A stretch of DNA of 64,000 bases from a virus (IMGVR_UViG_3300032282_001564:1-64000); one strand, 5' to 3'; counted from the first letter of the stretch, positions 4,178-49,879 are shown. The notes: a model not told the origin generated them from the letters alone. Made by a program: numbers and translations.

Positions 4178-4207
4178 AAGAACTCCTTAATAAGTGGCTT
4201 TGTAAAG

Positions 4208-4215
4208 TTATTTAA
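4208..4215 (-). promoter_or_regulatory. Possible late promoter (TTAAATAA) before the gp67-like gene
   Basis: Minus-strand TTAAATAA lies 31 bases upstream of the ATG at 4177, at a distance that would leave a short leader holding the Shine-Dalgarno. It matches the TAAATA core of the late element but is a weak match to the full consensus. Confidence 0.35.
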
Positions 4216-4273
4216 CAAAACTGCGTATATTAAGGGTTAAATGGGTAGTTTTTGAAGGTTTTTGATGAAATAA

Positions 4274-4507
4274 TTATACAGGACCAGGTAATGCACCAGG
4301 CTCTGCGGGAGGAGTGTACTGTTTAGCTACAGCTTCTAACTTCTTTTCATGCTCTAACTTACGCACATCGTGGCTTTGTCTTAGCTGATTTAGGTGTGCT
4401 AGTGTTAGTCTAGTAGAACGACTATTAGACATTTTAGCCACACTTTGATCGTCTTTTTCATCGTGATAGCCCTTGGGTGCTGGGTCAAATAGTTCAAAAA
4501 TGTTCAT
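4274..4507 (-). CDS. Small head-module protein of unknown function
   Basis: A 77-residue gene between portal and the gp67-like core gene. It starts MNIFELFDPAPKGYHD, has a basic helical centre (residues about 25-62: SRSTRLTLAHLNQLRQS, then KLEHEKKLEAVAK) and a Pro/Gly-rich end. I recall similar short proteins after gene 20 in T4-like marine phages, but no function is assigned. Co-transcription with the portal gene (21 bases upstream) suggests a head or core role. Confidence 0.7.
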   Translation of the reverse strand: MNIFELFDPAPKGYHDEKDDQSVAKMSNSRSTRLTLAHLNQLRQSHDVRKLEHEKKLEAVAKQYTPPAEPGALPGPV

Positions 4508-4528
4508 ACTACTATTTAACCTTTTTAC

Positions 4529-15679: not shown

Positions 15680-15695
15680 AGATTTTTATTATACA

Positions 15696-34300: not shown

Positions 34301-37300
34301 TAAATTTGCAGAGTTTGTACTTGATCAAAGTGTATTCACAGTAAACCCTGTGACTGTCTTATTAACAGATCATTATAAAGATGGCAACGCTATTGTTAAC
34401 CTAGCCGTTACTGGTAACACATTAACTTCTAATGTTTATAACTCTAACGATCTATTAAGCACGAGTACAAAGATGTACGATAATAGATTGCCTAACGCCA
34501 AGGTAATGACAGATTTGCCAACTGCGGGCTTTGTAAACATTAACGACATCGACGATACTATTTTTGATCTGAGCACTATTGATCAATCACAAGATACAAA
34601 CTATTCGATTGGCAATAAAATTTGGGTAGCAAAGGATTCAAATAAAAAGTGGAATGTATTCCGTGTTTGTGAAACAGGAATACTAGCTAAAAAATTAACT
34701 TATACACTTGACGATTATGTACAAGTTGATTTTGATAATCCGCACAATTTCTTAGTTGACGATTATCTAGTATTGAAAAACTTTAACAAGAAATGGGATG
34801 GTTTATATAAAATTGTAAACATACCAAATCGTGTATCTGTTACTATACAACTTAAAGATAAAACAAAATTAGGATATCTAATATCAGTTAGCCCATTTTC
34901 GGGTTCAGGATTAGTACATAAGCTATCATCCGTTGTACTAGATTCTGTCAAGGAACTACCTGATGTTCGTCCATTGTACGACTGGGACGACGGCGAACAC
35001 GTTTGGATTGAAAATTCTTCACCATTGGGCTGGGGAACATTTACTGTTAAAAGACCTTGGCTGGCAAATACAGTACAGTCAAGAACCAGTGCCACTCCTG
35101 GAGTACGTGGAAACTATGGCGCGGCAACAGCATCTAGTTTAGATAACAATTGGTTATATGTTGGCGCACCTGGTACAAGCACAGTAGAGATTTTATCTAA
35201 TGTAAATTATGTTTATAGTTCTGCTAACGTAATTAATAGTGCAGACAATAACTTTGGTTATAGCATTGCAACATCAAAGGACTTTGTTGTTATTAGTTCT
35301 CCTGATGCAGGAAATGTACGTGTATACACACACGGATCTACAACACCATTACAGGTAATTACATCAGCTAATGCCAATGGTAAGTTTGGATCAAGCGTCG
35401 ACATCAGCAATGACGGACATTGGTTATATGTGTCTGAACCTGCTACTGGTGTAGTACACGCTTATACCACAGTAGCAAACACAGCCGCTAATTTAAACTA
35501 TGTTAAAGTATCAACTAAAACTGTAAACAGTAGCATTATTAAAACCAATGCCAGCGGTACACGATTATTTGTCGGTGCACCAAACGACTTTAACGGATAC
35601 AACCAAGGCGGTAATGTTTATGTATACACTAGAACTGCTAACACAGTTTCATCTGCACAGACAATTTCTGGTGTATTTAAAAACGATAACGCAAGATTTG
35701 GTACAAGTTTAGACATTGATAAAACTGGTAATAACTTGTTTGTTGGTGTGCCTAACTCAACTATTTCTACTTACGCAAACGGATTGGTAGAACGTTGGAT
35801 ATACAACGGATCACAGTTTGTGCATCAAGCAAATATCGCACACCCTGGCAATACACCGGGCACATTTGGTAGTAGTATCAGTGTAACAGCAGATGCAAAA
35901 TTATTAGCGGTTGGTAGTGCTGGTAGCCAAGGCGAAGAAAGTACTACATTTGATAATGATGCAACACAAATTGACAAGCACACAACTAAATTCATTGATT
36001 ATATTATGAACAGTGGTGTGGTCTATATGTTTGATTCATTAATAGACTACAAAGTAGCCAATGATCCTGGTACATATATCTACGGACAAGAACTATCTGC
36101 ACAATTAACTAGCGGAGACCAATTTGGTACTAGTATAGTTGCAACTAGAGATGTTGTTGTAGTTGGCGCACCGGGCGTAACTGTTGATGAATATGTTAGT
36201 GCTGGTGAATCACACGTTTATGTAAATGCAAACAAAACGCCAATGTGGGATCGTACCAGAGAACAACAACCTGTTGTAGACATTGACAGTATTAACAGAA
36301 CTTTTGTATTTGATAAAACAAACAACAACATTCTAGCCGCACTAGATTATTTTGATCCAAACAAGGGCAAAATATTAAATTCTGTTGCTAGTGATGTTGA
36401 TTATCAACGTATTGGCGATCCAGCATTATACAACGCTGGTAGCACATCATCGGTTATTGATCTGCATTGGGGGCCAGACCAAGTTGGAAAAATTTGGTGG
36501 GACCTTGACCACATCCGATTTATTGATTATGAACAGGATGATTTATACTATAGATTGAACCACTGGGGTAAACGATTCCCGGGCAGTCAAGTACTAGTTT
36601 ACGAATGGGTTGAAAGTGATGTACCGCCAAGCAAGTACGAAGGCGATGGTACGCCATTGTACATGGACGATAGCAAATATTCTACTTATGGATTTGTTGA
36701 CCCAGCTGGCGCAATCAAATTGAAATACTATTTCTGGGTATCAGAAAAAACAACAATTAATGTCGATGCTGGAAAATCTAACAGCGCCTACAGCATTGCG
36801 GCTTCAATTGAAAATCCACAAAGTCAGGGAGTTGCATACGCAACAGTATTGCGTGATGATTGTTTAGCATTATACAATGTTAGCCAAGTATTGTCAGGTA
36901 AAAATGCAGTTCTACACATTACTAGCCGTAGCACAAACGCTGGGTTGATACACAGTGAATATGCACTGGTACAAGAAGGTAACCCTGCAAGTTTAATCCC
37001 GGGTTCTATTAAAGATAAGTTTATTGACAGTTTAGCCGGTCAGGATAAAATTGGTAATCCGGTTCCTGATCCTACACTAACACCAGCACAGGCCTATGGT
37101 ATAAACATTCGACCAAGACAAAGTATGTTTGTAAGCCATGACTTGGCATTGTCTAACTATCTTGAACTAGTTAACAATATTATGGCTACATACCAAGTAG
37201 CACGCCGAAAAGTTTTAACATTATTAAACAGCGAAGAATCTGCACCAAATATTAACACAGGCTTATACAGCCAGATTGTTAATAACGATACAGAATTGGG

Positions 37301-40300
37301 CTATATTAATACAACCAGCCTCGCTACAGGTTACAGCATCCTGGTAGTCAGTGATGAAACTCAAATGGGTAAATGGGCAATTTATACTTGGGACGGCGAT
37401 GCATGGGCAATATCTCGAGTACAGGATTATAAAACCAATTTATACTGGAACTATGCTGACTGGTACACATCAGACTATGATGTTACACGAGCCCCGGACT
37501 TAACTGTAGCAACAGCATTGGAGTTAGGAAAATATACTCTAGTGGCTGAAACTTATGTTAAAGTAACAGATGCTGGTAATGGCGATTTTGAAATTTATTA
37601 TATAGATGCCGATCTTAATAAGACTCTAGTAGGCATCCAAAACGGTACAGTTCAAATATCCACTGGCAGTATTCCTAAAATGGAATTACGTCAACTTTTA
37701 ATTGCAATGCAAGAAGAAATTTTTGTTGATGATTTAGCATTAGACTATAATAAGATTTTCTTTGCGTTAATTAAATTTGCTCTGACTGAGCAAAAAAATC
37801 CTGACTGGGTATTTAAAACCAGCTTCTTGACTGCTACACAATACCTACGTAAGTTAGAGCAATTCCCTAGCTATATTGCTGACAACCAGGATTTCTACAA
37901 AGAATATATTAACGAAGTTAAACCATATCGCACAGTACTACGTGAGTTTGTTGTAGATTATTTACGTAATGATAGCTATAGCGGTGACGTTACTGACTTT
38001 GATTTACCACCATACTGGGATTCAACATTAACTGTGTATCGTAGTCCAAGTGGCGAACAGGCATATGACACTACTTTGCTAACACAAGGCAAATACAATG
38101 CGTGGTCAGACAACTACAAATATAAGTTAATCGGAATACAAGTTAACCATGCAGGTACTGGATATACATTACCTCCGCAGATTGTTATTATTGATGAAGG
38201 CGGCCATGGAGCTGAAGCATACGCAACTCTTGATGGTAATGGCGGCGTCGGTGAAATTATAGTTACTAATCCAGGCGAAGGATTTGTTATAGCACCTAAG
38301 ATTATTATTAACGGTAGCGGAACTGGCGCAGTTGCAAGCCCAATATTACGTAATGTCTATCTAGATGACATGAGCGGTTACAACCTAGTGCGTAGTTTGT
38401 CTACTACTATCAAATTTGATAGAACTAGTTACACAAATCCAAATACCTTTGTATTTTGGGACACATTAACATCGGCAAACGTTGGACAACAAATACCAGA
38501 TGGTACAATCTTACGTACTGATGATATACTACGTAAATTAGTTATTAACAATTGGGTAGCAAATACTTCTGCTAACCTAGGTTCATTGATGTACCGCGGC
38601 GGTAACACATATACTGTCACCGGCAATGTATACCAAGCTGTGTTTAACAGTAACGTATTGTCTAACTTGGCATTAATAACAGCAAACGCTAGATCGTTAA
38701 CTGTGGACGCTAATATTACATTCCCGTATGCAAGTGTTACATCATTGACAGCCAAAGACTTTGACAATGCAAATGATCGTATTGTAGCCTTTAATGGTAA
38801 TATTGATCTTTCCAACGTAACAGATGGCATTGACTACATGGGCGTTATTGTTGATGGTAATGAATATATTCCATATGCCGAAAATGATAGCGTAATTGAA
38901 AGTCGTTATACTGACTCTTTAGGTGTTGATCCAAGTGGCATAGATATTGACGGTGGTGGTTACGTTGACGTTTACAGTAGTCATGCACCACAGGAACTAG
39001 TACCCGGTCGTATGTATGACAGTTTGAATATGTCGGTGTACACAGCCGGTGATAACCAATCGTTGGCCTATCGTATATTCAACGACATGAATCATAATAT
39101 TAACTATTATAGAATTTCATCTGATTACACTACAACATTGTCTGCTAACTTGTCATTGACTGATGAGTATATGTATGTTGACGATGCAACAAAATTACCT
39201 ACACCAGATACTGTAAGAGGTTATCCTGGCGTAGTATTTGTCAACGGTGAAAAAATTACCTACTGGAGAAACTATGCAAAAGAAACTCCAACAGCATGGG
39301 TAGCAAACCTAAGGGTTGGGATCGGCGAATTAATTTCGTACCAAAGCAATACATACATCACTACTGGAAATGTATTTGCTCGTTATTTTGCCAACATATC
39401 ATCGCATACCAATAATTCATCAAACATTGATATTTCTGGCAATGCTAATGTGCGTCTGGTAACAAACATAAACACTATAACGCGACTACGTAGAGCAGTT
39501 GAGGGCACCGGTCCAAGTAACGTTCATTTAGCTGGGTCAAGAGTTGTTGCTTCAAACTTTGAGCAGGCTGTTCCTGGTACTACAATTACAACAAAAACTA
39601 TTGCATCTGAAACATCTTATCAGACTACAGATGTTGCCAGTGTAGTGTTGGCAATGGATTTAACTAACCCTATTAGTGCTAACCTTGGCGACAATCTACA
39701 ACAACAAATTGTAGTTGATGATTGGCGTAACGGTGAATACTCTGTTGGTAGCTTTGTTTACTGGGACGGTGACACATACCAAACTACAGCAAATATATTT
39801 GTTCGTACAGTGGGATGGCAGTCTAATACAGTTTATCCTACCGGTTCATACGTAACACAAAATGGTAACACCTATGTTACTACTGGAAACGCATGGGCAC
39901 AAAACAAATCGTGGACAGCCAATACTGTATTTGCAACTAATTCCAATATCTATATTGGTTCAAACAGTTACTACACAACAACAGGTAACGTTTATGTAAG
40001 TATACCTACCTGGACCAGCAATACCGTATTTGCTACTAACACATCTATCTATCACAATGGTAATGTGTATCGAGTAACCGGCAACGTTTATGCACCAAAT
40101 GTAACCTGGGCTCCAGGATTGATTGTTCCTACTGGTAGTTACATTAACTATCAAGGTAGTACATATCAAACTATGGGCAACGTTGGTTATATTACCCGTG
40201 GCAATATAACTTATGCTAACGGAAACATTATCAGCTATGGTACAACATCATTGGCATCATGGAATAAATTGGCCTGGCGTGTAATACCAGTCGACAATAC

Positions 40301-41069
40301 TCCTGATTCAGGATTCTTTACTGCAAGTGCTAATTTAGTCAACACCGGATCTATTTTACAATTTGCAAATATTAATGCAAACGTACAATTCTTGTATCGT
40401 GGTATCAACGCCGGCTTTAACAGCATTAAGTCAAACGTTCAATACTTACCAACTGCTAATATTGCATGGCAACCAAACACTTGCTACACAGTGGGTGACT
40501 ATATTTCCTACAACAGCAATGTCTACATAATTGGTGGCAATATTTGCGGTAACAGTTTTGCTAACATTTCTGCTAACTTGGTCTATAACGGTCCTTTACA
40601 AACTCCAGACCAAAGCAAATTTGCTAGTATTGTAAACTCACACAAAGTAGTACAGGCGTTTACTGGAAATGCTATTACCAGCGTAACATTAAAAGTTATG
40701 GATACTGTAAGTAACGTATCACGTGTTCCAGTAATTATTACTGTTGGTAGTATTACTGCCCTACCGGAGATTTTTGACGGCCCATCTGGCTTTGACATTG
40801 AATCGTTTGATAACAACCCAGGTTCTCTGTACATCAACGGCAACGCCGCTTATAGCTTTGTTGAAGCCGCTGGCGTATTGGGTAACGTATCATTGTACGG
40901 AACTTCAAACGTTAGCCCGGGTACTGTTGTTAATACTGAGCGTGTTTGGTACAACCGCGGGCTTACAAGTGCAGTTGATGGCTACGGATTATACAATAGC
41001 ATAACAGCACAAGCAACATTCTTAAAAGATAAGCCAGGCTTTCTGCCTGATCCAGGAGTAACGCCATGA
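28392..41069 (+). CDS. Giant multidomain baseplate/tail protein (gp7 position)
   Basis: A 4225-residue protein, one fifth of the window. It follows gp6 with a one-base overlap, where T4 has gene 7. The N-terminus (INFLPQVFRSDANQRFF) and YDKFINYTNYYWLPDGPESV near 116 match what I recall of very large structural proteins in aquatic T4-like phages. Distinct modules are visible: long beta-rich stretches; a chitin-binding-like unit (about 1815-1850); a seven-bladed FG-GAP propeller (about 2235-2610); and at least six W-x-x-N-x-V/Y-type chitin-binding-like units (about 3380-4065). It is probably a baseplate-anchored adhesion arm binding surface glycans. No frameshift or internal stop interrupts it. 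Confidence 0.8.
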   Translation: MAKVRSINFLPQVFRSDANQRFFSSTVDQLVTDSTNRVIDGYIGRKFSPTYKLGDNYTPESTTSRKAYQLEPGVVIKDDDKNIIFSSGYADLLTTLNTNRSSTKNHQRLFAADYYNYDGRFDYDKFINYTNYYWLPDGPESVEVTAGSVPFQRTFVVTKNTAVGGYTFSDLDGHPNTQITLARGGTYQFIVDQPGSKFWIQSQLGLSGRDPNTPTVNTREVYGVQNNGSDSGVVLFSVPQKNAQDFYTQMSRDGIVDIATTIPYTKIQNRLFSDFIREYPEGIDGITSLLNRKTIVFVGNQVDSSEWTTPVFPSDDVTNTSPVTDHEIINNPTRTGIWQINLTALPNGDSVIQVNPYGPVYQQHRIYVRSGETYGSVHVWLNNLYRYNVIPVITADADYLYYQDGATGNFCGEIKLIDNASEPINIDRDIIGKKGYTSPNGVIFTNGLKIQFDSNVSPDTYYGAKFTDFQTWSKDVIALGGVVTGGIARLNGKIIGDWSNNQGWIYNNEYYVEGVGQAIKLVSTRFLQVPLHLSADIQTAGDYITINRASQDSNTWSSTNRWFHKDVLAATAKYNSQSEIDYGPNLSARRPIIEFEPNLQLWNFGRKAKTKVELFIDTATDAFVDIEGKMSYTLDGILLKPGMRIIFSRDYDQNVKNNIWEVQIETINSSNFIRLIQTADDPVLDGENIFVKLGSNADKIYRFNGTANSWNECQYKSSFNQEPMFDLVDADGYSFGDTTIYPGTTFAGTRFFGYAHGSGNNDVVLGFPLKYQNFNNIGDIVFDNYYDTQTFNYTGSTVECSSGYLYKDVGLATEAKVNNWVSGVEPTLQYQLLTTFYEGRVITDATSTEFAYVQIDTLPNKSATVSYFKVYLNNTLLTNGVDYDVTKYGVYNIILFTNDENKNIKLSVGDKIDVAIYSDTPSTNTESYYEIPNNLEYNPLNETFKTITLGQLRTHYNTLIENTAQSVASSRPIQDSYLKKQGGTLLQQSSPLVYAMAFLNDPDANFIDSINLARKEYGKFKNKFLNLCETLTTIDYNDPVIGVDTILQNINAIKNSSFSWYYSDMVPQGKNYNSVVYTVLNARQTNYEISSIFDYTQLSNRAVLVYVNGEQKVLGPDYTFSLVSPAIIFSTTLTIGDTIEIRDYFDTDGNYIPETPTKLGLYPKFEPEIYTDITYQIPVQVIRGHDGSITPAFGDFRDQYILELEKRIYNNIKADYKQNMMELYDIIPGRFRTTDYSAIEWARLLSHSFLQWTGANNLDYLTNTWYEPDNHWTWNYSLGFKDVVDGSNLRGSWRAIYEYWFDTDTPNLTPWEMLGFGSKPSWWEDRYGPAPYTQGNAVLWDDLEAGYIWNNGNPYTDTRFARPGLSNFIPVNNEGNLLSPTEIPLTKQYTTTNAGKPYSPGERGPVEQAWVRSSDYPFAIQVALAVAKPAKYFSTQIDISRFYTNPVTGHLSTAANKKLAPGLVVVNGDTTLGTTKRASGYLNWIADNIKHFGIDPVTTLNGFFRNFNVQLTHKVGGFTDQKLITVTAEQTSPGTKNASVLIPNENYHLYLNKSVPQAIISYSGVIVERVQNGYSVTGYDNSDPFFNVLLSRSSNNKEVIRVNAVDITILKDTNNTVIQIPYGTVFTSINQVVDFLVSYQRFLERQGFKFDQWDQDLQKQRDFVLSAQEFAYWSQQGFDIGSVIVLSPVSQKIEVNSIQSIVGSITNLPGQGRLFDQNFKPIKPTAFNIVRQPGDAGEFNTTTISTVDGSVIAFAKLNLVQFEHVLIFDNVDNFNDIIYLPHLGNRQFRLGIKGRATGNWNGTMSTDGYVYNDPIIDSWKQGTDYNTGDLVKFNNAYYTATTNIPASEKFGNNLWKQINPTDIQTGLLPSLGTNAQVFEKIYDMDNPPDAHDLQMFSAGLIGFRERPFLTDLGLSISNQAKFYQGYVKEKGTINAINALTRAKFNNVNGELNTYEEWAFQVGAYGDIDNNKFAEFVLDQSVFTVNPVTVLLTDHYKDGNAIVNLAVTGNTLTSNVYNSNDLLSTSTKMYDNRLPNAKVMTDLPTAGFVNINDIDDTIFDLSTIDQSQDTNYSIGNKIWVAKDSNKKWNVFRVCETGILAKKLTYTLDDYVQVDFDNPHNFLVDDYLVLKNFNKKWDGLYKIVNIPNRVSVTIQLKDKTKLGYLISVSPFSGSGLVHKLSSVVLDSVKELPDVRPLYDWDDGEHVWIENSSPLGWGTFTVKRPWLANTVQSRTSATPGVRGNYGAATASSLDNNWLYVGAPGTSTVEILSNVNYVYSSANVINSADNNFGYSIATSKDFVVISSPDAGNVRVYTHGSTTPLQVITSANANGKFGSSVDISNDGHWLYVSEPATGVVHAYTTVANTAANLNYVKVSTKTVNSSIIKTNASGTRLFVGAPNDFNGYNQGGNVYVYTRTANTVSSAQTISGVFKNDNARFGTSLDIDKTGNNLFVGVPNSTISTYANGLVERWIYNGSQFVHQANIAHPGNTPGTFGSSISVTADAKLLAVGSAGSQGEESTTFDNDATQIDKHTTKFIDYIMNSGVVYMFDSLIDYKVANDPGTYIYGQELSAQLTSGDQFGTSIVATRDVVVVGAPGVTVDEYVSAGESHVYVNANKTPMWDRTREQQPVVDIDSINRTFVFDKTNNNILAALDYFDPNKGKILNSVASDVDYQRIGDPALYNAGSTSSVIDLHWGPDQVGKIWWDLDHIRFIDYEQDDLYYRLNHWGKRFPGSQVLVYEWVESDVPPSKYEGDGTPLYMDDSKYSTYGFVDPAGAIKLKYYFWVSEKTTINVDAGKSNSAYSIAASIENPQSQGVAYATVLRDDCLALYNVSQVLSGKNAVLHITSRSTNAGLIHSEYALVQEGNPASLIPGSIKDKFIDSLAGQDKIGNPVPDPTLTPAQAYGINIRPRQSMFVSHDLALSNYLELVNNIMATYQVARRKVLTLLNSEESAPNINTGLYSQIVNNDTELGYINTTSLATGYSILVVSDETQMGKWAIYTWDGDAWAISRVQDYKTNLYWNYADWYTSDYDVTRAPDLTVATALELGKYTLVAETYVKVTDAGNGDFEIYYIDADLNKTLVGIQNGTVQISTGSIPKMELRQLLIAMQEEIFVDDLALDYNKIFFALIKFALTEQKNPDWVFKTSFLTATQYLRKLEQFPSYIADNQDFYKEYINEVKPYRTVLREFVVDYLRNDSYSGDVTDFDLPPYWDSTLTVYRSPSGEQAYDTTLLTQGKYNAWSDNYKYKLIGIQVNHAGTGYTLPPQIVIIDEGGHGAEAYATLDGNGGVGEIIVTNPGEGFVIAPKIIINGSGTGAVASPILRNVYLDDMSGYNLVRSLSTTIKFDRTSYTNPNTFVFWDTLTSANVGQQIPDGTILRTDDILRKLVINNWVANTSANLGSLMYRGGNTYTVTGNVYQAVFNSNVLSNLALITANARSLTVDANITFPYASVTSLTAKDFDNANDRIVAFNGNIDLSNVTDGIDYMGVIVDGNEYIPYAENDSVIESRYTDSLGVDPSGIDIDGGGYVDVYSSHAPQELVPGRMYDSLNMSVYTAGDNQSLAYRIFNDMNHNINYYRISSDYTTTLSANLSLTDEYMYVDDATKLPTPDTVRGYPGVVFVNGEKITYWRNYAKETPTAWVANLRVGIGELISYQSNTYITTGNVFARYFANISSHTNNSSNIDISGNANVRLVTNINTITRLRRAVEGTGPSNVHLAGSRVVASNFEQAVPGTTITTKTIASETSYQTTDVASVVLAMDLTNPISANLGDNLQQQIVVDDWRNGEYSVGSFVYWDGDTYQTTANIFVRTVGWQSNTVYPTGSYVTQNGNTYVTTGNAWAQNKSWTANTVFATNSNIYIGSNSYYTTTGNVYVSIPTWTSNTVFATNTSIYHNGNVYRVTGNVYAPNVTWAPGLIVPTGSYINYQGSTYQTMGNVGYITRGNITYANGNIISYGTTSLASWNKLAWRVIPVDNTPDSGFFTASANLVNTGSILQFANINANVQFLYRGINAGFNSIKSNVQYLPTANIAWQPNTCYTVGDYISYNSNVYIIGGNICGNSFANISANLVYNGPLQTPDQSKFASIVNSHKVVQAFTGNAITSVTLKVMDTVSNVSRVPVIITVGSITALPEIFDGPSGFDIESFDNNPGSLYINGNAAYSFVEAAGVLGNVSLYGTSNVSPGTVVNTERVWYNRGLTSAVDGYGLYNSITAQATFLKDKPGFLPDPGVTP
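35095..36230 (+). repeat. Seven FG-GAP-type blades (beta-propeller) in the giant protein
   Basis: Seven units of about 50 residues carry versions of FGxS…G…VGAP…VYxYT: YGAATASSLDNNWLYVGAP, FGYSIATSKDFVVISSP, FGSSVDISNDGHWLYVSEP, GTRLFVGAPN, FGTSLDIDKTGNNLFVGVP, FGSSISVTADAKLLAVG and FGTSIVATRDVVVVGAP. Seven is the number expected for an integrin-alpha-like propeller, a protein- or glycan-binding fold. Confidence 0.75.
38550..40580 (+). repeat. Chitin-binding-like W/Y repeats near the C-terminus of the giant protein
   Basis: Repeated units of the form W-x-(A/S)-N-T-V-(Y/F)-x-x-G-S-x-(V/I)-x-x-x-G-x-x-Y-x-x-T-G-N-V occur at about 38557, 39297, 39730, 39815, 39910, 40010, 40110 and 40465. The pattern resembles carbohydrate-binding family 5/12 (ChtBD3) modules. 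Related single units occur at about 33840 in the same gene and at about 43150 in the next fibre gene, suggesting module exchange. Confidence 0.6.
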
Positions 41070-41764
41070 TAAATACTAACAATAGACAGCCCGTCGAAGA
41101 AAATTTAGAGGAAAAAGCAGTGGAAAATACACAAAAACGCCCAGACGAAAGCTCTGGCATTTACGCCCGTGGGCATATTAAGATCTTTGATCCAGAAACT
41201 CAAGAAGTTTTTGTAGACAAATCAAACGCAATTCACTATGAAAACCTTAGTATTGCGTTGGCCAGTTCCATTGCTAATAAAAGTCAAAACTTTATCTATG
41301 AAATGAATTTTGGTAACGGTGGTACTAGTGTAGATACTACTGGTATTATTACCTATTTGCCAACTAACACAACTGGACAAAAGAGTAACTTATACAATCC
41401 TACTTACAGTAAAGTAGTTGACGATACTGCCATTACAAATTTAAATCCTCTAAATAACAAAATGACAGTAACACACATTCCTGGTACTGTTTATACTGAT
41501 ATTCTAGTTAGTTGCTTATTAGACTACGGTGAGCCAAGTGGTCAAGCACTTTTTGATAACAGTCAAAATTTATCAAGTGAATATGTATTTGATGAACTAG
41601 GCTTACGTGGTCGTAGTACTGATGGTACAAGTGGACTAACATCAACAGGCCTGTTACTAACACACGTGGTATTCCACCCTGTGCAAAAAGCTCTTAATCG
41701 ATTGATTCAAATTGACTATACTGTGCGTATTCAAACATTAACCAACCTAAGCTCGAACGGATAA
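41066..41764 (+). CDS. Conserved baseplate/tail structural protein of unknown type
   Basis: A 232-residue protein between the giant gene and the first fibre gene. It has a charged start (residues 1-31) and a beta-rich body with GIYARGHIKIFDPETQEV (about 32-49), NFGNGGTSVDTTGI, then YVFDELGLRGR (about 172) and a final LNRLIQIDYTVRIQ. Two starts are supported: ATG 41066 (AGGAG seven bases before, overlapping the giant gene stop) and in-frame GTG 41120 (AGAGG eight bases before, behind a late promoter motif), giving 232 or 214 residues. It is probably a wedge or fibre-attachment protein (position of T4 gp8-gp9), not recognised by motif. Confidence 0.65.
   Translation: MINTNNRQPVEENLEEKAVENTQKRPDESSGIYARGHIKIFDPETQEVFVDKSNAIHYENLSIALASSIANKSQNFIYEMNFGNGGTSVDTTGIITYLPTNTTGQKSNLYNPTYSKVVDDTAITNLNPLNNKMTVTHIPGTVYTDILVSCLLDYGEPSGQALFDNSQNLSSEYVFDELGLRGRSTDGTSGLTSTGLLLTHVVFHPVQKALNRLIQIDYTVRIQTLTNLSSNG
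41069..41075 (+). promoter_or_regulatory. Late promoter motif ATAAATA inside the start of the 41066 gene
   Basis: GATAAATAC begins within the second codon of the longer form. Transcription would start near 41081, too late for the ATG at 41066 but 39 bases before the GTG at 41120, which has its own good ribosome site. It would also feed the fibre genes downstream. Confidence 0.45.
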
Positions 41765-41770
41765 TAAACT

Positions 41771-43843
41771 ATGGCATATGATTTAGTTAAAACAGACGGT
41801 TCCCACTTAACAACCTTAGGTGATGGTTATATTGATACCAGCACTGGTATTAATCTAATCGGGCGTAATACCCCGAGCTATGGCGACGCACAAAACGAAA
41901 ACTTTATTCGTTTATTAGAAAATTTTTCTGGCAAGCTAGATCCAAGCCAGCGTGGCGCTATCAATGCGTTAACTGGTACACTATGGTACGACACTAACAC
42001 AAATACTCTAAGAGCATACGATGGTATAAACTGGAACACAACAAGTGGCCCAATCGTTGCAAACACCGCACCACTATTAACAGGCGGTACTGAATCATTA
42101 AAGTTTGGCGCACTATGGTATGATGTTCCTAACCAACAATTAAACACATGGACTGGTGTCGAGTGGAAATTAGTTGGACCACAAGCTAAAGCTAGCCAAG
42201 GCAAAAGCGGAAACTATGTTGAAACAATATTAGATCCAGCTGGTGTTTACCATATTGTAGTTAACCAATACATTAACAATAATTTAGTCAGCATTACTAG
42301 TTTTGATGGTGAGTTTACTCCATTGACAGCTATTGCTGGATTTACAACTATTCGTCCAGGTGTTAACTTAACAACATTAAATGTTAGTACTGTATTAAAT
42401 GGCACAGCAACTAACAGTATTAAATTTAATAACTTATTTGCCAATGCATTTGCTAGAGTTGACCAACCAACTACATTTACATCAGATGTTTCTGTCAACG
42501 GAAACTTAATTTTATCAAGTGCTAACATTTATTATAATTCTGCAAGCAAAAGTCTAACAGCATACAATTATGCACTAAATGGCAATGTTGACATTTATGT
42601 TAATAAGGCCGCAGTTAAAACTAGTGTACTACATATCAATGGCGCTACTGGTTTAGCAGAAATTAACGGCGACCCAGTTACTGATAATGGTATAGCAACA
42701 AAACACTATGTAGATCAAATTAATGACGAACTGTTTGCTAACCTAGATGTTACAACAGGTCGTTTACAATATGCCTTAGATAACTTTAATACTGATTATC
42801 TATCTAATATTAACGCAGTTATTAGTTCAACTAATGCCAACCTAAATGCTGTACAAGCAGGCATTAACTCAAACGTAACTACATTAACAACTTTAACAAA
42901 TAATAGATTAAACTATGCTAACGTCTACTTAAATTTCTTACAACAAGAAGTTGAAGTAGTAGCCTACAGTGATTCGTTAAAGGCCCCAATTGAAAGCCCA
43001 ACCTTTACTGGCAATGCAATAGCACCAAACGTAGCCGCAATGAATAATTATATTACTTCATTGGCAGGTAGTCAGTATCAAATTAGTTTAGTTAGCCCAG
43101 TAGCATCTGTAGCAAATGGCGCATTCTTAACGCAACAAATTGTATCTACTCCTTGGTCATCAAATACTGTATACAACTTAGGTTCGATTGTTTATCATGG
43201 CGGTAATAGTTATGTAGTCAACGGTAACGTGTTTGCTAATACATGGGCAAACGTAGTAACTGGTGCGGCACAATATGTATACAGCGGTTCTATATTAACA
43301 ACTGGAAACTATCGTGTAATCGCAAACGTAAATGGATCAACTACAGTCCCTGTCACTGTTATTACAAATAATTTAAACTTTACATACCCAAGCGTAGTTG
43401 AAATTAACGGCGTTGTAATTAATAATCAAATTACAGGAATAAGTTTAATTTCTCCAGGACTAAGTTACCCTGGTATTGGTGATAACAGCGGACGTATTGC
43501 AACTACAGCCTACGTTGATGCAACTGCTAACTTAGTATATGGTGACTATGATCACCGTATTAGACAAGAAATAACAAACCGTATTAATTATGTTGACACA
43601 TCAGTTGCACCAAAGGCAAATATTGCCAGCCCAACACTTACAGGAACGCCGGCCGCCCCAACAGCAACCCCATTAACTTGGTCAACAGCCGGGCACAATC
43701 CCTTAAGTGGTGACACAACTACAACTATAGCAACTACAGCATACGTAGCAACGTCAATATCAAATCAAAAATTTAACTATACAGTTTCTACACAACCTCC
43801 TAGTGGTGGTTCTGATGGGGATTTCTGGTTCCAGGTGGATTAA
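41771..43843 (+). CDS. Tail fibre protein A (paralogous N-terminal module)
   Basis: A 690-residue fibre. Residues 1-165 (MAYDLVKTDGSHLTTLGDGYIDT, then NFIRLLENFSG, then GTLWYDTNTN and GALWYDVPNQ, then WKLVGP) form a module shared with the proteins at 47343 and 49863, probably the baseplate-attachment part. The shaft is beta-rich with a central helical stretch (about 315-400). A chitin-binding-like unit (WSSNTVYNLGSIVYHGGNSY) sits at about 460-480, and ATTAYVD-type tail-fibre repeats appear near 577 and 659. It ends in DGDFWFQVD. Receptor contact or fibre hinge is inferred. Confidence 0.75.
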   Translation: MAYDLVKTDGSHLTTLGDGYIDTSTGINLIGRNTPSYGDAQNENFIRLLENFSGKLDPSQRGAINALTGTLWYDTNTNTLRAYDGINWNTTSGPIVANTAPLLTGGTESLKFGALWYDVPNQQLNTWTGVEWKLVGPQAKASQGKSGNYVETILDPAGVYHIVVNQYINNNLVSITSFDGEFTPLTAIAGFTTIRPGVNLTTLNVSTVLNGTATNSIKFNNLFANAFARVDQPTTFTSDVSVNGNLILSSANIYYNSASKSLTAYNYALNGNVDIYVNKAAVKTSVLHINGATGLAEINGDPVTDNGIATKHYVDQINDELFANLDVTTGRLQYALDNFNTDYLSNINAVISSTNANLNAVQAGINSNVTTLTTLTNNRLNYANVYLNFLQQEVEVVAYSDSLKAPIESPTFTGNAIAPNVAAMNNYITSLAGSQYQISLVSPVASVANGAFLTQQIVSTPWSSNTVYNLGSIVYHGGNSYVVNGNVFANTWANVVTGAAQYVYSGSILTTGNYRVIANVNGSTTVPVTVITNNLNFTYPSVVEINGVVINNQITGISLISPGLSYPGIGDNSGRIATTAYVDATANLVYGDYDHRIRQEITNRINYVDTSVAPKANIASPTLTGTPAAPTATPLTWSTAGHNPLSGDTTTTIATTAYVATSISNQKFNYTVSTQPPSGGSDGDFWFQVD

Positions 43844-43846
43844 AAC

Positions 43847-44908
43847 ATGTCATATGGTCGCGGCGTCTTTGTTAAGCGAAACGGAATATGGACTGAAACA
43901 ACTCCACGAATCTTTGATTCAAATATAGCACCCGTTGATTCTGTAACAGTAACAATTACTGTAAATGGTGCTGGTGGTGGGTCGGGTGCCAGTGATGCCG
44001 CAGGTGCAGGATACACAGGAATCCCAGGTCGCCGTGTTACCGGTACTATTACACTACATCAAAATGATTTTTTACAAATAGCCTGTGGATCTGCAGGTGC
44101 CGACGGCAGTGGTGGCGGTAATGCCGCTGGCGGTACTAATCCATTGGGATTCAATGGTGGTCAGGGCGGATATCCTGGCAATGAAGGATCGTCCGGTGGT
44201 GGTGGCGGCGGCGGAGCTGCCAGTGTTGTTCTATTAAATAGAGAAGTTATTATTGTTGCTGGTGGTGGTGGTGGAGGCGGTGGCTCTGGTGCTAATTCCC
44301 CGGGACGTGCGGCCGCTAATGCAAGTCAAAATACAGGATCTAATTTAGGAACACCTGGGCAAGATAAAACCTACGGTGGTGAGCATCCAGCACCACAGGG
44401 TGGTGGTGGCGGTTGTAAGATTATCTGTACTAAGCTGTATCAGTTGGGACTACTACCAGAAGAAATATATGCGGCAGACCAAGCCTACGGAGAACAACTA
44501 CAAGAACGTATGCCTATGTTATACAATGGATATCGTGCATGGGCAGAAGTTGTTGTTGATTGGATGAGCGGAAGCGGTCCTAAGATGATGCCTTGGATGT
44601 CGGATGAAGAATTTAGTCAGGCCGCTACTAAGTGGTCAGTTAAGTGGGCAGAAGATATTGCTACACCATGGGCTGAAGAAATGGCTTATCAAATGGGATC
44701 AAGAGACCAAGGTAACTTAATTGGTAAAGCAATTATGGCTGTTGGTGTACCTATTAGTATCGTTGTTGGTGTGTGGAATAAAGTATTTGGCGAAAGCAAA
44801 CGCCCAACAGGATTTGTTAAAGGTATAGCATTAATTGGTGTATTTACATTGTTACGCAGTATTGTAGCAGTAGGAAATACTCTAAAGAAAATTAAAGGAA
44901 GCAAGTAA
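43847..44908 (+). CDS. Glycine-rich adhesin, N-terminal part, fused to Cys-led CKIIC tail (cassette 1)
   Basis: A 353-residue protein in two unlike halves. Residues 1-189 are a Gly-rich adhesin domain (VTVTITVNGAGGGSGASD, several polyglycine loops, VIIVAGGGG), the kind that forms polyglycine sandwich tips on phage fibres. Directly after a GGGGG run, Cys190 opens a helical domain: CKIICTKLYQLGLLPEEIY, then WAEVVVDWM, then ATPWAEEMAYQMG, and finally a hydrophobic helix (about 326-345) and a basic end (KKIKGSK). The next ORF resumes the adhesin at polyglycine with its own ribosome site. The adhesin thus appears split by the tail-encoding segment. Confidence 0.75.
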   Translation: MSYGRGVFVKRNGIWTETTPRIFDSNIAPVDSVTVTITVNGAGGGSGASDAAGAGYTGIPGRRVTGTITLHQNDFLQIACGSAGADGSGGGNAAGGTNPLGFNGGQGGYPGNEGSSGGGGGGGAASVVLLNREVIIVAGGGGGGGGSGANSPGRAAANASQNTGSNLGTPGQDKTYGGEHPAPQGGGGGCKIICTKLYQLGLLPEEIYAADQAYGEQLQERMPMLYNGYRAWAEVVVDWMSGSGPKMMPWMSDEEFSQAATKWSVKWAEDIATPWAEEMAYQMGSRDQGNLIGKAIMAVGVPISIVVGVWNKVFGESKRPTGFVKGIALIGVFTLLRSIVAVGNTLKKIKGSK

Positions 44909-44916
44909 TGGCAGAC
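44414..44916 (+). other. Adhesin-splitting cassette 1
   Basis: The segment from the Cys codon at 44414 to the codon before polyglycine resumes at 44917 supplies a 164-residue C-terminal tail, a stop (TAA 44906-44908), a ribosome site (AAAGGAA near 44894-44900) and an overlapping new ATG (44908). Removing it would join GGGGG to GGGGGGGG in frame and rebuild a normal adhesin domain. It is homologous to cassette 2 at 46123. Confidence 0.6.
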
Positions 44917-46581
44917 GGAGGCGGCGGAGGCGGCGGAGGCGGAGGCCACTGGGGCGGTATTGGTGGCGCAACCTACGGCGGAGATGATGGTGCGTATAGT
45001 GGAGCTTTTGGTGGCTCCTTGGCTCCTGCTGGCTTTACTACAAGCGTAGGACAAACAGGTCAAGGGTCGGTAGTAATTACATATACAGCTACACAACAAT
45101 TATTTGTTGGCGGCACAGTTACCCATAATGGTACAACGTGGACTCATACTTTTGCTCCGGGTACTACAACTTATTTTGTATCAAATTTCCCGGGACCTTA
45201 TAAACAAATTAGACGTGGATGGGCTAAACTCAATGGTACATGGAAAGATTTTTATCCTAGTACAGGTGCTGTGTCCTTTGCTTCATATGGACAGATAATA
45301 GCCAAACTACCACACCTTGATCCTTCAATGGAAGTTAGTCCCGATATTGCTGGTTTATTGTCGCAAGGTATTACTGTTACTCCGACAACTACTGGAGTAG
45401 CACCAGCGGATACTGATGCAACTAGGGAATGGTTTAACTATCAGAGTGGATTAATAGCCGCATCTGTAAAACAATATTATCTAAGTCAGGTTACTCCGTA
45501 TCCTGTAACTGCAAGTTATTTTGTAGCTCATATGCTACCTAAGCCAGATGGAAAAGTAGTAGTACAGGACTACACAGGTTCAGCAGTTAATTTTTCTAAT
45601 GTATCTAACATAGTAGGAACTGCATACACTTATATTTTTGATCCAACACATAACGCACAAAATTTAAAATACGAAGATGATTTTATAAACGCTGTAAACT
45701 CAGCAATTATGTTGAGCAACATTAATAAAGAAATAGCATGGGATAGTCCTAGCCAAAGTTTTACTTTTAAAGTACCAAGAGGCATTCATAGTGTCAGCGT
45801 TGACGTTGTCGGCGCCGGAGGCGGTGGTGGTGGGTCTGACGAAGTTGGTGTAGGATCAGCCGGAGGCGGTGGTGGGTCGGGTGGATATCAAATAAATCAA
45901 ATATTAAATGTTGTGCCAGGAGAGTACTTAACTATTACTCCGGGTAAACCTGGCTTTGGCGCACCTTTTGTAGGACGGACTACTCGAGCACCAGCCGGTG
46001 GCGCCGGTGGCGATTCTATCATTGCTGGAGAGTTTGGCAGTATAACTGCAACTGGCGGTAAAGGTGGTGCAGGTGGTGCTAGTGACGAAATACCACAACC
46101 AAGTGGCGGTGGAGGTGGCGGCTGTAAAATTATCTGTACTAAACTACATGAGTTTGGTTACTTGTCAGATCACATATACGAAGCTGACGAACGCTTTGGC
46201 GAATACTTACGAGCCAACGATCCATACGCATACTATGGATATGTTAAATGGGCGTCAGTTGTTGTTGACTGGATGGAAAAAGATGGCCCACAATGTATGT
46301 TCTGGATACGTGATAAAGAAAAGCGTAACCAAGCACAACGTACAATGGCAATTAACTGGGCAAGACGTATTGCTACACCATGGGCAGAACATATGGCCTA
46401 CATAATGGGCGTAGGAGAAAAAGACAATCGTGCAGGTAAGCTAATCATGAAAACAGGTATGTGGGTAAGTCGCATGATTGGTAAGTATACAAAAACAACA
46501 GAACCAACTAAGAGTGTAGCACTAGGTTACGTAATGTGGGCTACATTTGGTGTATTCTGGTTATTAGCGGGAGTTAAATAA
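44908..46581 (+). CDS. Glycine-rich adhesin, middle part, with second CKIIC tail (cassette 2)
   Basis: A 557-residue protein. It opens MAD plus a ten-glycine run and finishes the first adhesin domain (GSVVITYTA, about 50-58). Residues about 60-290 are an ordinary fibre segment (KQIRRGWAKLNGTWKDFYP, then a helical SMEVSPDIAGLLSQG stretch). A second Gly-rich adhesin domain follows (VDVVGAGGGGGGSDE, about 300-405), again cut at polyglycine by CKIICTKLHEFGYLSDHIY (from Cys406). The tail ends with GYVMWATFGVFWLLAGVK, a membrane-type helix. The two tails share about half their residues by eye, notably CKIICTKL, WAxVVVDWM and ATPWAExMAYxMG. Confidence 0.75.
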   Translation: MADGGGGGGGGGGHWGGIGGATYGGDDGAYSGAFGGSLAPAGFTTSVGQTGQGSVVITYTATQQLFVGGTVTHNGTTWTHTFAPGTTTYFVSNFPGPYKQIRRGWAKLNGTWKDFYPSTGAVSFASYGQIIAKLPHLDPSMEVSPDIAGLLSQGITVTPTTTGVAPADTDATREWFNYQSGLIAASVKQYYLSQVTPYPVTASYFVAHMLPKPDGKVVVQDYTGSAVNFSNVSNIVGTAYTYIFDPTHNAQNLKYEDDFINAVNSAIMLSNINKEIAWDSPSQSFTFKVPRGIHSVSVDVVGAGGGGGGSDEVGVGSAGGGGGSGGYQINQILNVVPGEYLTITPGKPGFGAPFVGRTTRAPAGGAGGDSIIAGEFGSITATGGKGGAGGASDEIPQPSGGGGGGCKIICTKLHEFGYLSDHIYEADERFGEYLRANDPYAYYGYVKWASVVVDWMEKDGPQCMFWIRDKEKRNQAQRTMAINWARRIATPWAEHMAYIMGVGEKDNRAGKLIMKTGMWVSRMIGKYTKTTEPTKSVALGYVMWATFGVFWLLAGVK

Positions 46582-47006
46582 AATGGGAATTAGTTTAGAA
46601 GAGTTTTTAAAAGATAGAGAAGCTTGTGCTCATTGCGATGAAACAGGCAACCAAGAAACTTGCATTACTACATTGCTAAGTCGTGAAGATAGTTGCATTT
46701 TTTATAACGCATTAACTAAAAATGGTGACCCACACGATGATACTGATGTAGCGTATTTGCAAAACTTCCGAGCAGTAATGCCGGGGCACAAAGTACTTGA
46801 TTATTATGTTCGTGCTAGTAAGATAGTACAGGCAATCAATGATGAGCCCGGTGATCACACAGATCTATGGATGGATATTACTCGACAATATGTACATCCA
46901 ATTATTGCAGAAGTACGTTCTGGAAAAAATGAAGAAGCGTATGCCGCTATTTTGGCAATGCTTGATACATTAGAAACAGGAAAACAAGGAGAATAATATG
47001 CCAGCA
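46123..47006 (+). other. Adhesin-splitting cassette 2, with extra gene
   Basis: It starts at the Cys codon 46123 after GGGGGG, encodes a 152-residue tail with stop at 46581, then a complete 137-codon gene (46583-46996), then AAGGAG and a new ATG at 46998 that resumes the Gly-rich sequence at 47007. It follows the same plan as cassette 1 but is longer. The pair forms diverged direct repeats 1.7 kb apart. Confidence 0.6.
46583..46996 (+). CDS. Unknown Cys-containing protein carried inside cassette 2
   Basis: A 137-residue, soluble, acidic protein of no family I recognise. The N-terminal third holds CAHC (residues 16-19) plus single cysteines in NQETCITT and EDSCIFY, which may bind zinc. The rest is helical (NFRAVMPGHKVLDYYVRASK, then a C-terminal EEAYAAILAMLDTLETGK). 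GGGAG lies nine bases before the ATG. It sits between the split halves of an adhesin, so a role in handling the CKIIC tail or the adhesin halves is a reasonable guess, no more. Confidence 0.65.
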   Translation: MGISLEEFLKDREACAHCDETGNQETCITTLLSREDSCIFYNALTKNGDPHDDTDVAYLQNFRAVMPGHKVLDYYVRASKIVQAINDEPGDHTDLWMDITRQYVHPIIAEVRSGKNEEAYAAILAMLDTLETGKQGE

Positions 47007-47306
47007 GGTGGAGCAGGTGGATTACCAAACGGAAATCCTGGAGCAGACGGCGAACAAGGTAGTGTTGAGAGTAGTTCCAATACTGGTGGCGCTGGCGGCG
47101 GCACACCTTTTGGCGTAGGCGGATCTAGTAGTATTTCGTATCCTAACGGTACCAGAGGTACTGGGTATGGGGCAGGCGGCGGAGGTGCAAGTGCTCCTAA
47201 CGGTGTAGACCCTCTTAACTGGACGGGCGGCGATGGATCATTTGGGTTAATTACAGTATATTGGGGTCCTAAGTATGATCCTAACTATACTAATAAGCCC
47301 TATTAG
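46998..47306 (+). CDS. Glycine-rich adhesin, C-terminal part
   Basis: A 102-residue protein starting MPAGGAGGLPNGNPGADGEQ, with collagen-like and polyglycine loops, ending in the usual adhesin closing strand (GSFGLITVYWGP). On its own it lacks any attachment domain, so it reads as the detached end of the upstream adhesin. It has a perfect AAGGAG six bases before the ATG, so it is translated rather than a mere remnant. Confidence 0.7.
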   Translation: MPAGGAGGLPNGNPGADGEQGSVESSSNTGGAGGGTPFGVGGSSSISYPNGTRGTGYGAGGGGASAPNGVDPLNWTGGDGSFGLITVYWGPKYDPNYTNKPY

Positions 47307-47342: not shown

Positions 47343-49289
47343 ATGGCATATACAATAACAAAAACAGACGGTACAACCCTAACAACTATCAATGATGGGT
47401 TCTTAGACACGAGTACCAGCCTAAGTTTACCCGGTCCAAACTATGTTGGATACGGTCAAAAACTCAACGAAAATCTAGTTTATTTGTTAGAAAATTTTGC
47501 CGGGAATAGTTCTCCAACTGGTTTAAACGTTGAAGGACAACTGTGGTATGACAAAATTAATACTACATTAAACGTCTTTACAAAATATGGATATCTTCCT
47601 GTTGCTGGTGTAGTAGTATCTGGCAGTCGTCCAGTAGTACAAAAAGTTGGCGACGTTTGGTTTAATACAGCAACTAATCAATATTACTTGTATGATGGTA
47701 CTGACTATAGATTAGTCGGGCCAGTGTACACTAAAACACAAGGCGTAAGTGGCGCGATTCCTGTAGATATTATAGAAAGCCTAGGCACACCACATAACGC
47801 ACTACAATTACAATTTGGCAATACTGTTATTGCTGTCATTAGCGAAAAACCTACATACGCAGTAGGCCCTGGTGGCGGCCCAACAGGGTTTACATATATT
47901 AATCCGGGTATTACATTTAGGAATGACATCCACGCTACCATAAACAGTAACCTGGTAGGAGACGTAACAGGTAACGTAGTAGGCTATATCACTGGTGATG
48001 TAGTTGGTAACCTTAGAGGTAATGTAGTAGCATCTACATTAGTTGGTAGCTTAACTGGTAACGTAGTAGCTACAACATTAAGAGGTAACTTAACAGGCAA
48101 TACTGTTACAACCAATAGCGTTACAACAAATTTTAGCACAGGCAATGCGGTAATTACAGGTGGTTACATAACCGGCATTTCCAATATTGGTGTAACTTCG
48201 GCAACAGTACAAAACCTTAGAGCCGCTAACGCTGTAATTACAGGTGGTTACATCAATAACATTGCTAATATCTCTGTTACATCTGCCGTAGTTAATAACA
48301 TTACTATGACCACTGGTACAATTGGCGCATTGTCAATCGGAAGTGCTCAAGTTGCATCTGGTGATTTATACAATATTGGTAATATTAACGTTACTACGAT
48401 TGAAGCTGATAACATTAGCACAGGCAACGCTGTAATTACTGGTGGCTATATCAATAACATAGTTAACCTTGGTGCAAGTACCGGTAGTTTCCAAAACTTA
48501 ACAGCATCAATCATTAACGCCCAAGGCGGTAACTTTAACGGCATCAGTAACTTTAATGCCTTCACTGCTCAAACAAATAACTTTAGTACAGGCAATGCAT
48601 GGATTACAGGTGGTAACCTTGTAAGCGTACCACTGTATAACAATACTATCACAGCCGCTAACCTGGTCAATGCTACAACCGCAACTCCTGCAACTAATAA
48701 TAGAAGTACAGCAGTAGCAACAACAGCATTTGTTCATAATGTTATGCCAACTGGTGCTATTATTATGTGGGCTGGCTCAATTAATAGCATTCCGTCGGGT
48801 TGGGCACTATGCGATGGTAGTAATGGAACTCCAGACTTGCGTGATCGCTTTATTGTTGGTGCCGGTACAGCAAACATTGGTACTACTGGTGGATCTGCTA
48901 CCACAACATTAACGCAGGCAATGTTACCTCCACACATACACTCAGTTAGTTTAACCGGTAATACCAATGCTGGTGGTACACACTCACACATTGCGTCAGT
49001 TACTGAAACAGCTCACACGCACACATACGATAGAGCTACATTAAATTCTGCCGCGTTTAACTATAACAATGCATATCCACAGAGTGGCACAGCATACACC
49101 TATAGTTTAACCAACACAAGTACTACAACTGGTACAAGATCTACGGGTCTAAGCGTTGGTGTTTCACAAGCCGCTGACCATATACACTCAATTACAATAA
49201 CAGGTAATACTGGATCTATTGGTTCTAGTACATCATTTGATACACGCCCACCATATTATACATTGTGCTTCTTACAAAAGGCGTATTAA
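47343..49289 (+). CDS. Tail fibre protein B with tail-collar domain (gp12-like tip)
   Basis: A 648-residue fibre. Residues 1-150 are the shared fibre module (MAYTITKTDGTTLTTINDGF, then NLVYLLENFAG, QLWYDKIN). The shaft has LxGNVV-type repeats (about 205-255) and four NAxITGG repeats (about 265-425). Residues about 476-515 are a phage tail collar domain (GAIIMWAGSINSIPSGWALC, then DGSNGTPDLRDRFIVGAG). The tip has HIHSV, HSHI, HTHTY and HIHSI pairs, as in the metal-holding tip of T4 short tail fibres, and ends PPYYTLCFLQKAY. It is a probable receptor-binding fibre. Confidence 0.85.
   Translation: MAYTITKTDGTTLTTINDGFLDTSTSLSLPGPNYVGYGQKLNENLVYLLENFAGNSSPTGLNVEGQLWYDKINTTLNVFTKYGYLPVAGVVVSGSRPVVQKVGDVWFNTATNQYYLYDGTDYRLVGPVYTKTQGVSGAIPVDIIESLGTPHNALQLQFGNTVIAVISEKPTYAVGPGGGPTGFTYINPGITFRNDIHATINSNLVGDVTGNVVGYITGDVVGNLRGNVVASTLVGSLTGNVVATTLRGNLTGNTVTTNSVTTNFSTGNAVITGGYITGISNIGVTSATVQNLRAANAVITGGYINNIANISVTSAVVNNITMTTGTIGALSIGSAQVASGDLYNIGNINVTTIEADNISTGNAVITGGYINNIVNLGASTGSFQNLTASIINAQGGNFNGISNFNAFTAQTNNFSTGNAWITGGNLVSVPLYNNTITAANLVNATTATPATNNRSTAVATTAFVHNVMPTGAIIMWAGSINSIPSGWALCDGSNGTPDLRDRFIVGAGTANIGTTGGSATTTLTQAMLPPHIHSVSLTGNTNAGGTHSHIASVTETAHTHTYDRATLNSAAFNYNNAYPQSGTAYTYSLTNTSTTTGTRSTGLSVGVSQAADHIHSITITGNTGSIGSSTSFDTRPPYYTLCFLQKAY
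47950..48620 (+). repeat. Shaft repeats in tail fibre B
   Basis: Two repeat families are seen: short L-x-G-N-V-V units at about 47950-48110, and four copies of a longer unit reading N-A-(V/W)-I-T-G-G-x-I at about 48142, 48229, 48424 and 48595, each preceded by a GGCAATGC- or GCTAACGC-like sequence. Such repeats usually form a triple beta-spiral or beta-helix shaft. Confidence 0.65.
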
Positions 49290-49879
49290 TGATAATTGAG
49301 CTTGACAATTATGTAAATGCTGAGGACCTTGCTTATATACGTGAGCAAATTGAACCACGCATTACCGGATATGGCGAGCCAAACGAATACCATAGGGCTG
49401 GCACTACTTTAACAATAGCGAAAATTTCAGAATTAACAGATTTGAATTCTCGTTTGAGCAACATATTCCGCAATGTTAAAGTACGCATCAGAAGAGATTA
49501 CCGCCCAAGTTATAGTGGCATGGGTGATAGTGGCTACGAATTCCATAGATATCAGCCCGGGGATATTTGCAAACCCCACGGCGACAGCGAAATTGTAGCT
49601 GGGGAACCACATTTACGTTACGCCAGTGTGGTACTGCACTTAAATACAGTAGAAACTGGCGGGGAATTAATATTCCCAACCCAAGATATTCGGGTAAAAA
49701 CAAAAGCAGGAAAAATAGTAGTTTTTCCGCCCTACGGCATGTTTAATCATTACACAACCCCAAGCGAAGAAGTACGAGATGTAATAGTAACTTGGTTTAC
49801 ATATGATGGATTAAGTGTTGTTAAAAACGGCATAAATATAACGAGCAATCAAGGATTATTAAATGGCATACACAATTGA
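49289..49879 (+). CDS. Prolyl-4-hydroxylase-like 2-oxoglutarate/Fe(II) oxygenase
   Basis: A 196-residue oxygenase. HGD at 97-99 and His154 (FNHYTTP) give the facial triad; RDVIVTWF (163-170) supplies the 2-oxoglutarate Arg region; YASVVLHLNTVETGGELIFP (111-130) is the typical double-stranded helix core. The frame is open upstream, but the ATG at 49289 overlapping the previous stop (TAATG) fits the family start (MIIELDNYV). Sitting between two fibre genes and near Gly/Pro-rich collagen-like adhesins, it may hydroxylate prolines in them (inference). Confidence 0.85.
   Translation: MIIELDNYVNAEDLAYIREQIEPRITGYGEPNEYHRAGTTLTIAKISELTDLNSRLSNIFRNVKVRIRRDYRPSYSGMGDSGYEFHRYQPGDICKPHGDSEIVAGEPHLRYASVVLHLNTVETGGELIFPTQDIRVKTKAGKIVVFPPYGMFNHYTTPSEEVRDVIVTWFTYDGLSVVKNGINITSNQGLLNGIHN

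Follow-up and report, generated by a model that had tools for sequence, protein, structure and literature searches.

A glycine-rich phage adhesin broken twice within polyglycine by cassettes that end one reading frame and open the next

Organization of the split adhesin locus

The viral sequence IMGVR_UViG_3300032282_001564:1-64000, a stretch of 64,000 nucleotides (nt) from a 113-kb virus record (hereafter the window), contains three consecutive open reading frames (ORFs), each of which encodes only a part of a glycine-rich adhesin (Table 1). The coordinates and sequences of these ORFs, their polyglycine ends, the tails that follow and the restarts agree with an initial annotation of this DNA, which had described an adhesin broken twice within polyglycine by removable inserts, and the joined flanks of the inserts match unsplit relatives. 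At each break the upstream adhesin sequence, which ends as ..QGGGGG in piece 1 and as ..SGGGGGG in piece 2, passes directly into a tail that begins with CKIICTKL and runs to a stop codon. The next ORF then opens with MAD-GGGGGGGGGG in piece 2 and with MPA-GGAGG in piece 3. Of the proposed restart into polyglycine, the ATG plus two codons stand, but piece 3 resumes in glycine-rich sequence that is not pure polyglycine. The first insert, cassette 1, lacks a small gene, and its stop overlaps the start of the next piece as TAATG. The second insert, cassette 2, contains a fourth ORF, P3, which was absent from the ORFs previously listed.

Table 1. Features of the split adhesin gene and of the genes that flank it in the window (aa, amino acids)
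Feature	Coordinates	Strand	Remarks
ORF, adhesin piece 1 and tail	43847-44908	+	353 aa
ORF, adhesin piece 2 and tail	44908-46581	+	557 aa
ORF, adhesin piece 3	46998-47306	+	102 aa
N-half of Gly-rich domain 1, ending in GGGGG	43847..44413	+	ORF; joint spanned by unsplit homologue in L077
Cassette 1: stop-terminated 164-aa tail of the KIICTKL family with a hydrophobic helix at its C-terminus	44414..44908	+	
Restart ATG plus two codons (MAD)	44908..44916	+	Shine-Dalgarno AGGA 8 nt upstream
C-half of Gly-rich domain 1, spacer domain, N-half of Gly-rich domain 2 (ending in GGGGGG)	44917..46122	+	
Cassette 2, DNA block: tail, P3 gene, ribosome site and ATG, bounded on both sides by Gly codons	46107..47020	+	914-nt match to L072
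Cassette 2 tail, 152 aa, KIICTKLHELGYL-like subtype	46123..46581	+	92% identical to L001 tail
P3, small CFI-box-like gene within cassette 2, 137 aa	46583..46996	+	89% identical in L001
C-half of Gly-rich domain 2 (piece 3), restart MPA-GGAGG, AGGAG ribosome site	46998..47306	+	phrog_863 519-603
Conserved upstream gene, anchor for relatives	41066..41764	+	phrog_11259; 80 loci
Upstream fibre-like protein, 690 aa, left edge of adhesin site	41771..43843	+	
Downstream tail-fibre protein, 648 aa, right edge of adhesin site	47343..49289	+	phrog_8469 tail fiber

Relatives with an uninterrupted adhesin

Relatives, designated here by L numbers, include 80 loci anchored on the conserved upstream gene. 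Continuity was assessed by joining the flanks by script without the tails and comparing the product with these relatives. The three joined pieces give a protein of 690 residues with joints at 189 and 591. Joint 1 is spanned by unsplit ORFs at the same locus in L077 (39% identity, E 4e-57) and L061 (E 3e-52), and joint 2 by those of L082 (51.6%, E 2e-63) and L075 (E 4e-50). The coordinates of the PHROG 863 profile, which involve no joining, place the end of the N-half at 519 and the beginning of the C-half at 519 in the window, with the corresponding values being 518 and 518 in L054 and 518 for the C-half of L056; piece 2 of the window covers phrog_863 392-519, and the L082 protein is unbroken over 311-603. 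When aligned with the intact L082 domain, the N-halves (43-63% identical) and C-halves (45-54%) tile it and meet in polyglycine. These sequence comparisons confirm that the three ORFs are consecutive parts of one glycine-rich adhesin, and hence the prediction that deletion of the inserts would restore one continuous protein is upheld by relatives of the uninterrupted kind that had been suggested as a search target. The unsplit L075 protein (12261-16013) contains, close to joint 2, about 28 additional residues in frame (KKNAGVIGNLVNSIF..PPPPGVG), possibly a remnant.

At the adhesin position of the anchored loci, the glycine-rich ORF is single and unbroken in about 20 distinct cases and split in eight loci other than the window, a tally made by eye with homology tested for part of the intact ORFs. 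Some of the split relatives are broken at other polyglycine positions and some contain other inserts. KIICTKL tails are found at the breaks in L054, L056, L072 and L094, and a CCVISTAL tail at that of L064; L023, L025, L034 and L149, which belong to another kind of phage locus, are broken at a third polyglycine position. The C-half carries a tail of its own in L094 and L156, and in the latter (3939-4685) this belongs to a second tail family (CCVISSAL), with a KIICTKL tail on the N-half. In L099 (15344-16033) the adhesin break has a Hint-like domain directly after GGGGGGG; downstream of it lie an ORF of YaeF-like papain type, a 72-aa gene and then the glycine-rich restart. The tail-less split of L066 (13307-16206) holds a 235-aa ORF, an Asn-synthetase-like ORF with an SGGIDSS motif and no Pfam match, and a 2-oxoglutarate-Fe(II) (2OG-Fe(II)) oxygenase with DUF6817, and in that of L100 (10722-11779) the adhesin end, GGC-stop, is followed by a 2OG-Fe(II) oxygenase-like ORF and then the restart. 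In every split locus that was examined, a conserved C-half adjoins the N-half. A homology of the KIICTKL and CCVISTAL tails was considered and rejected, the similarity being confined to a motif of 17 residues and not significant. The segment after the L099 Hint-like domain likewise shows no homology to the KIICTKL tail, and the other candidates for polyglycine-Hint tails resemble ordinary inteins.

Restart signals, constraint and movement of the cassettes

A Shine-Dalgarno sequence of at least 4 nt, counted at 3-13 nt from the ATG, precedes 13 of 14 restart ATGs, the figure for all ATGs of the window being 4.2%, which substantiates the good ribosome sites initially reported for the restarts. 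Estimates of the ratio of non-synonymous to synonymous substitution (dN/dS) for the C-halves are 0.10 (L023-L034), 0.15 (window-L054) and roughly 0.1-0.43 for other pairs, all of them approximate given that dS is near or beyond saturation in most pairs; the values for the second tail and for P3, between the window and L001, are 0.04-0.05. The downstream halves thus look constrained, and the C-half ratios favour the view that the split is maintained and not decayed.

A 914-nt block of the window (46107-47020) is 83.2% identical to positions 12844-13753 of L072. The block lies at break 2 in the window and at break 1 in L072, the alignment stops short of the adjoining adhesin DNA, and the window site equivalent to that of L072 holds a different, shorter cassette. 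The presence of the same block at non-orthologous breaks indicates that the cassettes have changed sites. In the tail tree the second tail of the window (window_B2) falls with L001_B1 (95/84) in the midst of tails from unsplit fibres; the tails thus do not follow the site. Both edges of the cassette 2 block fall inside glycine codons, and this, taken together with the survey of tails described below, agrees with the earlier proposal that the inserts land in polyglycine-coding DNA. No nuclease, recombinase or intron was recognisable in the cassette in searches of Pfam, NCBIfam, PHROG and Rfam, and searches for RNA elements, introns and tRNAs found none. The window cassettes, having neither an Rfam match nor a nuclease domain, therefore differ from mobile introns and homing elements.

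The tail domain and its putative small partner genes

The tail family comprises 74 distinct copies, all of them C-terminal, the majority of which end ordinary unsplit fibre-like proteins. The linker before the tail is polyglycine in 41 copies, NC-rich in 23 and of other composition, including proline/arginine, in the remaining 10; what stands before the tail in L022, L024, L027-L031 and L134 is a protein of about 300 aa rich in NCNC, with asparagine/cysteine repeats. The expectation that tails of the CKIICTKL type would always follow polyglycine and precede a restarted adhesin accordingly fails. The internal Cys of the KIIC motif is present in all 74 tails, and the residue before the motif is Cys in 14, being otherwise mainly Gly or Ser. 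The cassette 1 tail is 57-66% identical to tails of other phages. The tail is modelled as an all-helical structure (predicted local distance difference test, pLDDT, 84.7), and a transmembrane-like hydrophobic stretch, mostly near the C-terminus, was detected in 35 of the 36 tails tested. The model has five significant viral matches, which, where named, are uncharacterised or DUF4815 phage proteins; a bacterial distribution was considered and rejected, the only find being one short contig of a metagenome-assembled genome.

P3 itself has no direct match to the CFI-box or to other Pfam, NCBIfam or PHROG families. However, profile comparison aligns the P3 family with a small protein encoded beside a tail in L044 (94% probability, E 1e-7), which passes the cut-off of NF041770 (CFI_box_CTERM). 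CFI-box-CTERM is the C-terminus of a long protein, whereas P3 is a stand-alone ORF lying downstream. A small gene often adjoins the tail, and L218 (3417-4304) and L223 (3417-4295) encode a P3-like domain and a diverged KIICT tail in one protein; the adjacency and the fusion suggest that the tail and the P3-type protein work together. The arrangement is reminiscent of the Tfa-family tail-fibre assembly chaperones, the small gene of which also lies directly downstream of the fibre C-terminus, but neither P3 nor the scanned partners of 66-72 aa match the Tfa family. These partners and P3 were also considered as a single family, which was rejected for want of significant similarity. In the cultured Synechococcus phage SynMITS9220M01 (L020; MT408532.1) a tail follows polyproline/polyarginine in protein _028 and is accompanied by the small P3-like protein _029 and, downstream, by the glycine-rich piece _030. 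When isolate phages were searched for piece 3, P3 and the CCVISTAL tail, this was the only one recovered, and only with P3.

Family and fold of the adhesin

The ORF at 44908-46581 matches Gly_rich_2 with 42.8 bits, above the Pfam cut-off of 24.3, and the region 43847..44413 shows similarity to ALK_LTK_GRD (E 1.6e-4) and Gly_rich_2 (E 0.008) below the respective cut-offs. An AlphaFold2 model of the unsplit L082 domain (pLDDT 81.6, predicted template modelling score 0.80) resembles the Bxb1 tail tip (E 1e-6), the Pam3 fibre (PDB: 7ypx, E 3.7e-6) and, more weakly, the ALK glycine-rich domain. The fold of the intact domain is accordingly like that of the glycine-rich TNF-like domains of Pam3 gp24 and ALK (PDB: 7ypx, 7lir; Gly_rich_2, ALK_LTK_GRD). 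The joint corresponds to residue 120 of 209 in the model, at the edge of its least confident loop stretch. Since seven of the eight modelled strands lie in the N-half and the last (204-208) in the C-half, neither half is predicted to be a complete domain. Pam3 gp24 is a single uninterrupted chain, whereas the domain in the window is distributed over two cistrons with the cut in polyglycine; with two breaks in the window and one chain in relatives, the adhesin would represent a split variant of the glycine-rich TNF-like phage adhesins. The distal tip of the Pam3 fibre is made up of its glycine-rich loops, the variable ends of which have been proposed as receptor sites (PMC9608196); by analogy, the adhesin domain may bind a receptor at the distal tip. 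Glycine motifs also flank variable tip segments in the gp38 adhesins of the S16/PP01/T2 type, in which hypervariable loops sit on a polyglycine II sandwich (PMC12892980), as they do here. The gp38 segments, however, vary within one gene, whereas in the window the exchanged segment stops and restarts translation.

A model for the split adhesin and its alternatives

The above observations are best accommodated, with a probability that we put at roughly 0.6, by a receptor-binding adhesin of a jumbo-type myophage that has captured two portable C-terminal modules in its glycine-codon tracts and the halves of which assemble non-covalently. The adhesin would be built like the Pam3 fibre, from TNF-like domains rich in glycine, and recombination within the glycine-codon tracts would have brought in the two modules. 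As the sequence shows, each cassette ends the upstream half with a helical tail, its hydrophobic C-terminal helix and a stop, may include a small CFI-box-like partner gene, and by its closing ribosome site, ATG and glycine codons keeps the severed half translatable. The C-half would supply the remaining glycine loops and the last β-strand by non-covalent joining, and the tail would probably be left at the variable distal tip, the presumed place of receptor binding. There it might conceivably serve contact with the host surface or membrane, or assembly, with the small protein as partner. Certain points weigh against this proposal. The repeats of glycine codons that border the cassettes are short and imperfect, which leaves the recombinational route an inference. 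Neither a similar fold in the PDB nor a family in Pfam, NCBIfam or PHROG was found for the tail, which makes any role assigned to it a guess. Moreover, the first break of the window is without a small gene, the splits of L066 and L100 show that a tail is not needed for the split, and saturation of dS blurs the measure of constraint.

It is rather unlikely, if still worth weighing, that the pieces are separate proteins, with those bearing tails being finished fibres, the C-halves acting alone or with other partners, and the adhesin never rebuilt. Such an arrangement would account for the majority of tails being ends of ordinary unsplit fibres, so that an N-half with a tail could by itself be a finished protein, and for the C-halves of L094 and L156 with tails of their own; but it leaves neither half complete in the model and does not sit well with the retention of C-halves beside N-halves in every split locus examined. 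Improbable, too, is the notion that the cassettes are selfish coding elements, spreading by active targeting of polyglycine DNA, with a restart that only keeps the host gene alive. The occurrence of a cassette at different sites in different phages, its own stop and restart, and its edges in glycine codons all fit this notion, whereas the contents of the inserts differ among loci, no mobility enzyme or intron is recognisable in the cassette, and the tail is far commoner at the end of normal fibres, where the linker before it may also be NC-rich or of proline/arginine.

The initial annotation had raised a thioester at the Cys after polyglycine as a means of joining the halves, and more generally the tail could activate the polyglycine C-terminus for ligation or be cleaved off. 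What the window shares with the intein, BIL and Hint systems is an insert, here directly after polyglycine, and the Hint-like domain of L099 occupies such a site with C1, TxxH and YANG (block F) motifs and a weak match to Pfam Vint (E 1.7e-4, below the curated cut-off). The window tails, by contrast, are modelled as all-helical, lack splicing motifs and any Hint profile match in Pfam and NCBIfam, and are followed by a downstream half in a separate ORF. Given further that the Cys is not conserved in the family as a whole, with many tails following NC-rich or proline/arginine linkers, and that the C-halves begin with MA, MP or MS and not with a nucleophilic Cys, thioester chemistry or trans-splicing was rejected for the window tails, and post-translational joining in general is highly improbable. 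Cleavage chemistry at the polyglycine site is possible, on its sequence motifs, for L099 alone. A decayed gene or an assembly artefact, which has nothing in its favour beyond the split itself, is hardly credible: the same plan recurs in many contigs from independent samples, which excludes an assembly accident, and is accompanied by ribosome sites and apparent constraint.

Going beyond the preferred reading of captured modules, it is conceivable, albeit tentatively, that these loci constitute a natural split-adhesin system in which one receptor-binding domain is produced as two chains that reassemble at the fibre tip, and polyglycine tracts serve as landing sites for stop-restart cassettes that bring different C-terminal tip domains and are swapped to alter the display of the tip. 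That phage adhesins exchange tip segments between glycine motifs is already known. In the present locus the segment exchanged terminates one protein, sometimes contributes a gene and opens the following protein, with the cut-off half staying conserved. The locus is thus a concrete case of a receptor-binding domain that is broken into chains and yet kept. It also brings to light a C-terminal domain that is widespread on phage fibres yet has neither a family name nor a known fold, and the cultured Synechococcus phage with the same tail and small gene makes the system testable. A literature search, to which subscription journals were mostly inaccessible, found no work dealing with the CFI-box or describing phage adhesins split in this way.

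Genomic neighbourhood

The conserved anchor gene has homologues in jumbo phages, among them Sinorhizobium phage Phosso, Agrobacterium phage Atu_ph07 and Pectobacterium phage CBB. It is preceded in the window by a very long virion structural ORF of 4225 aa (28392-41069; phrog_10938), and a 2OG-Fe(II) oxygenase-like gene (49265-49879) lies among the tail-fibre genes.

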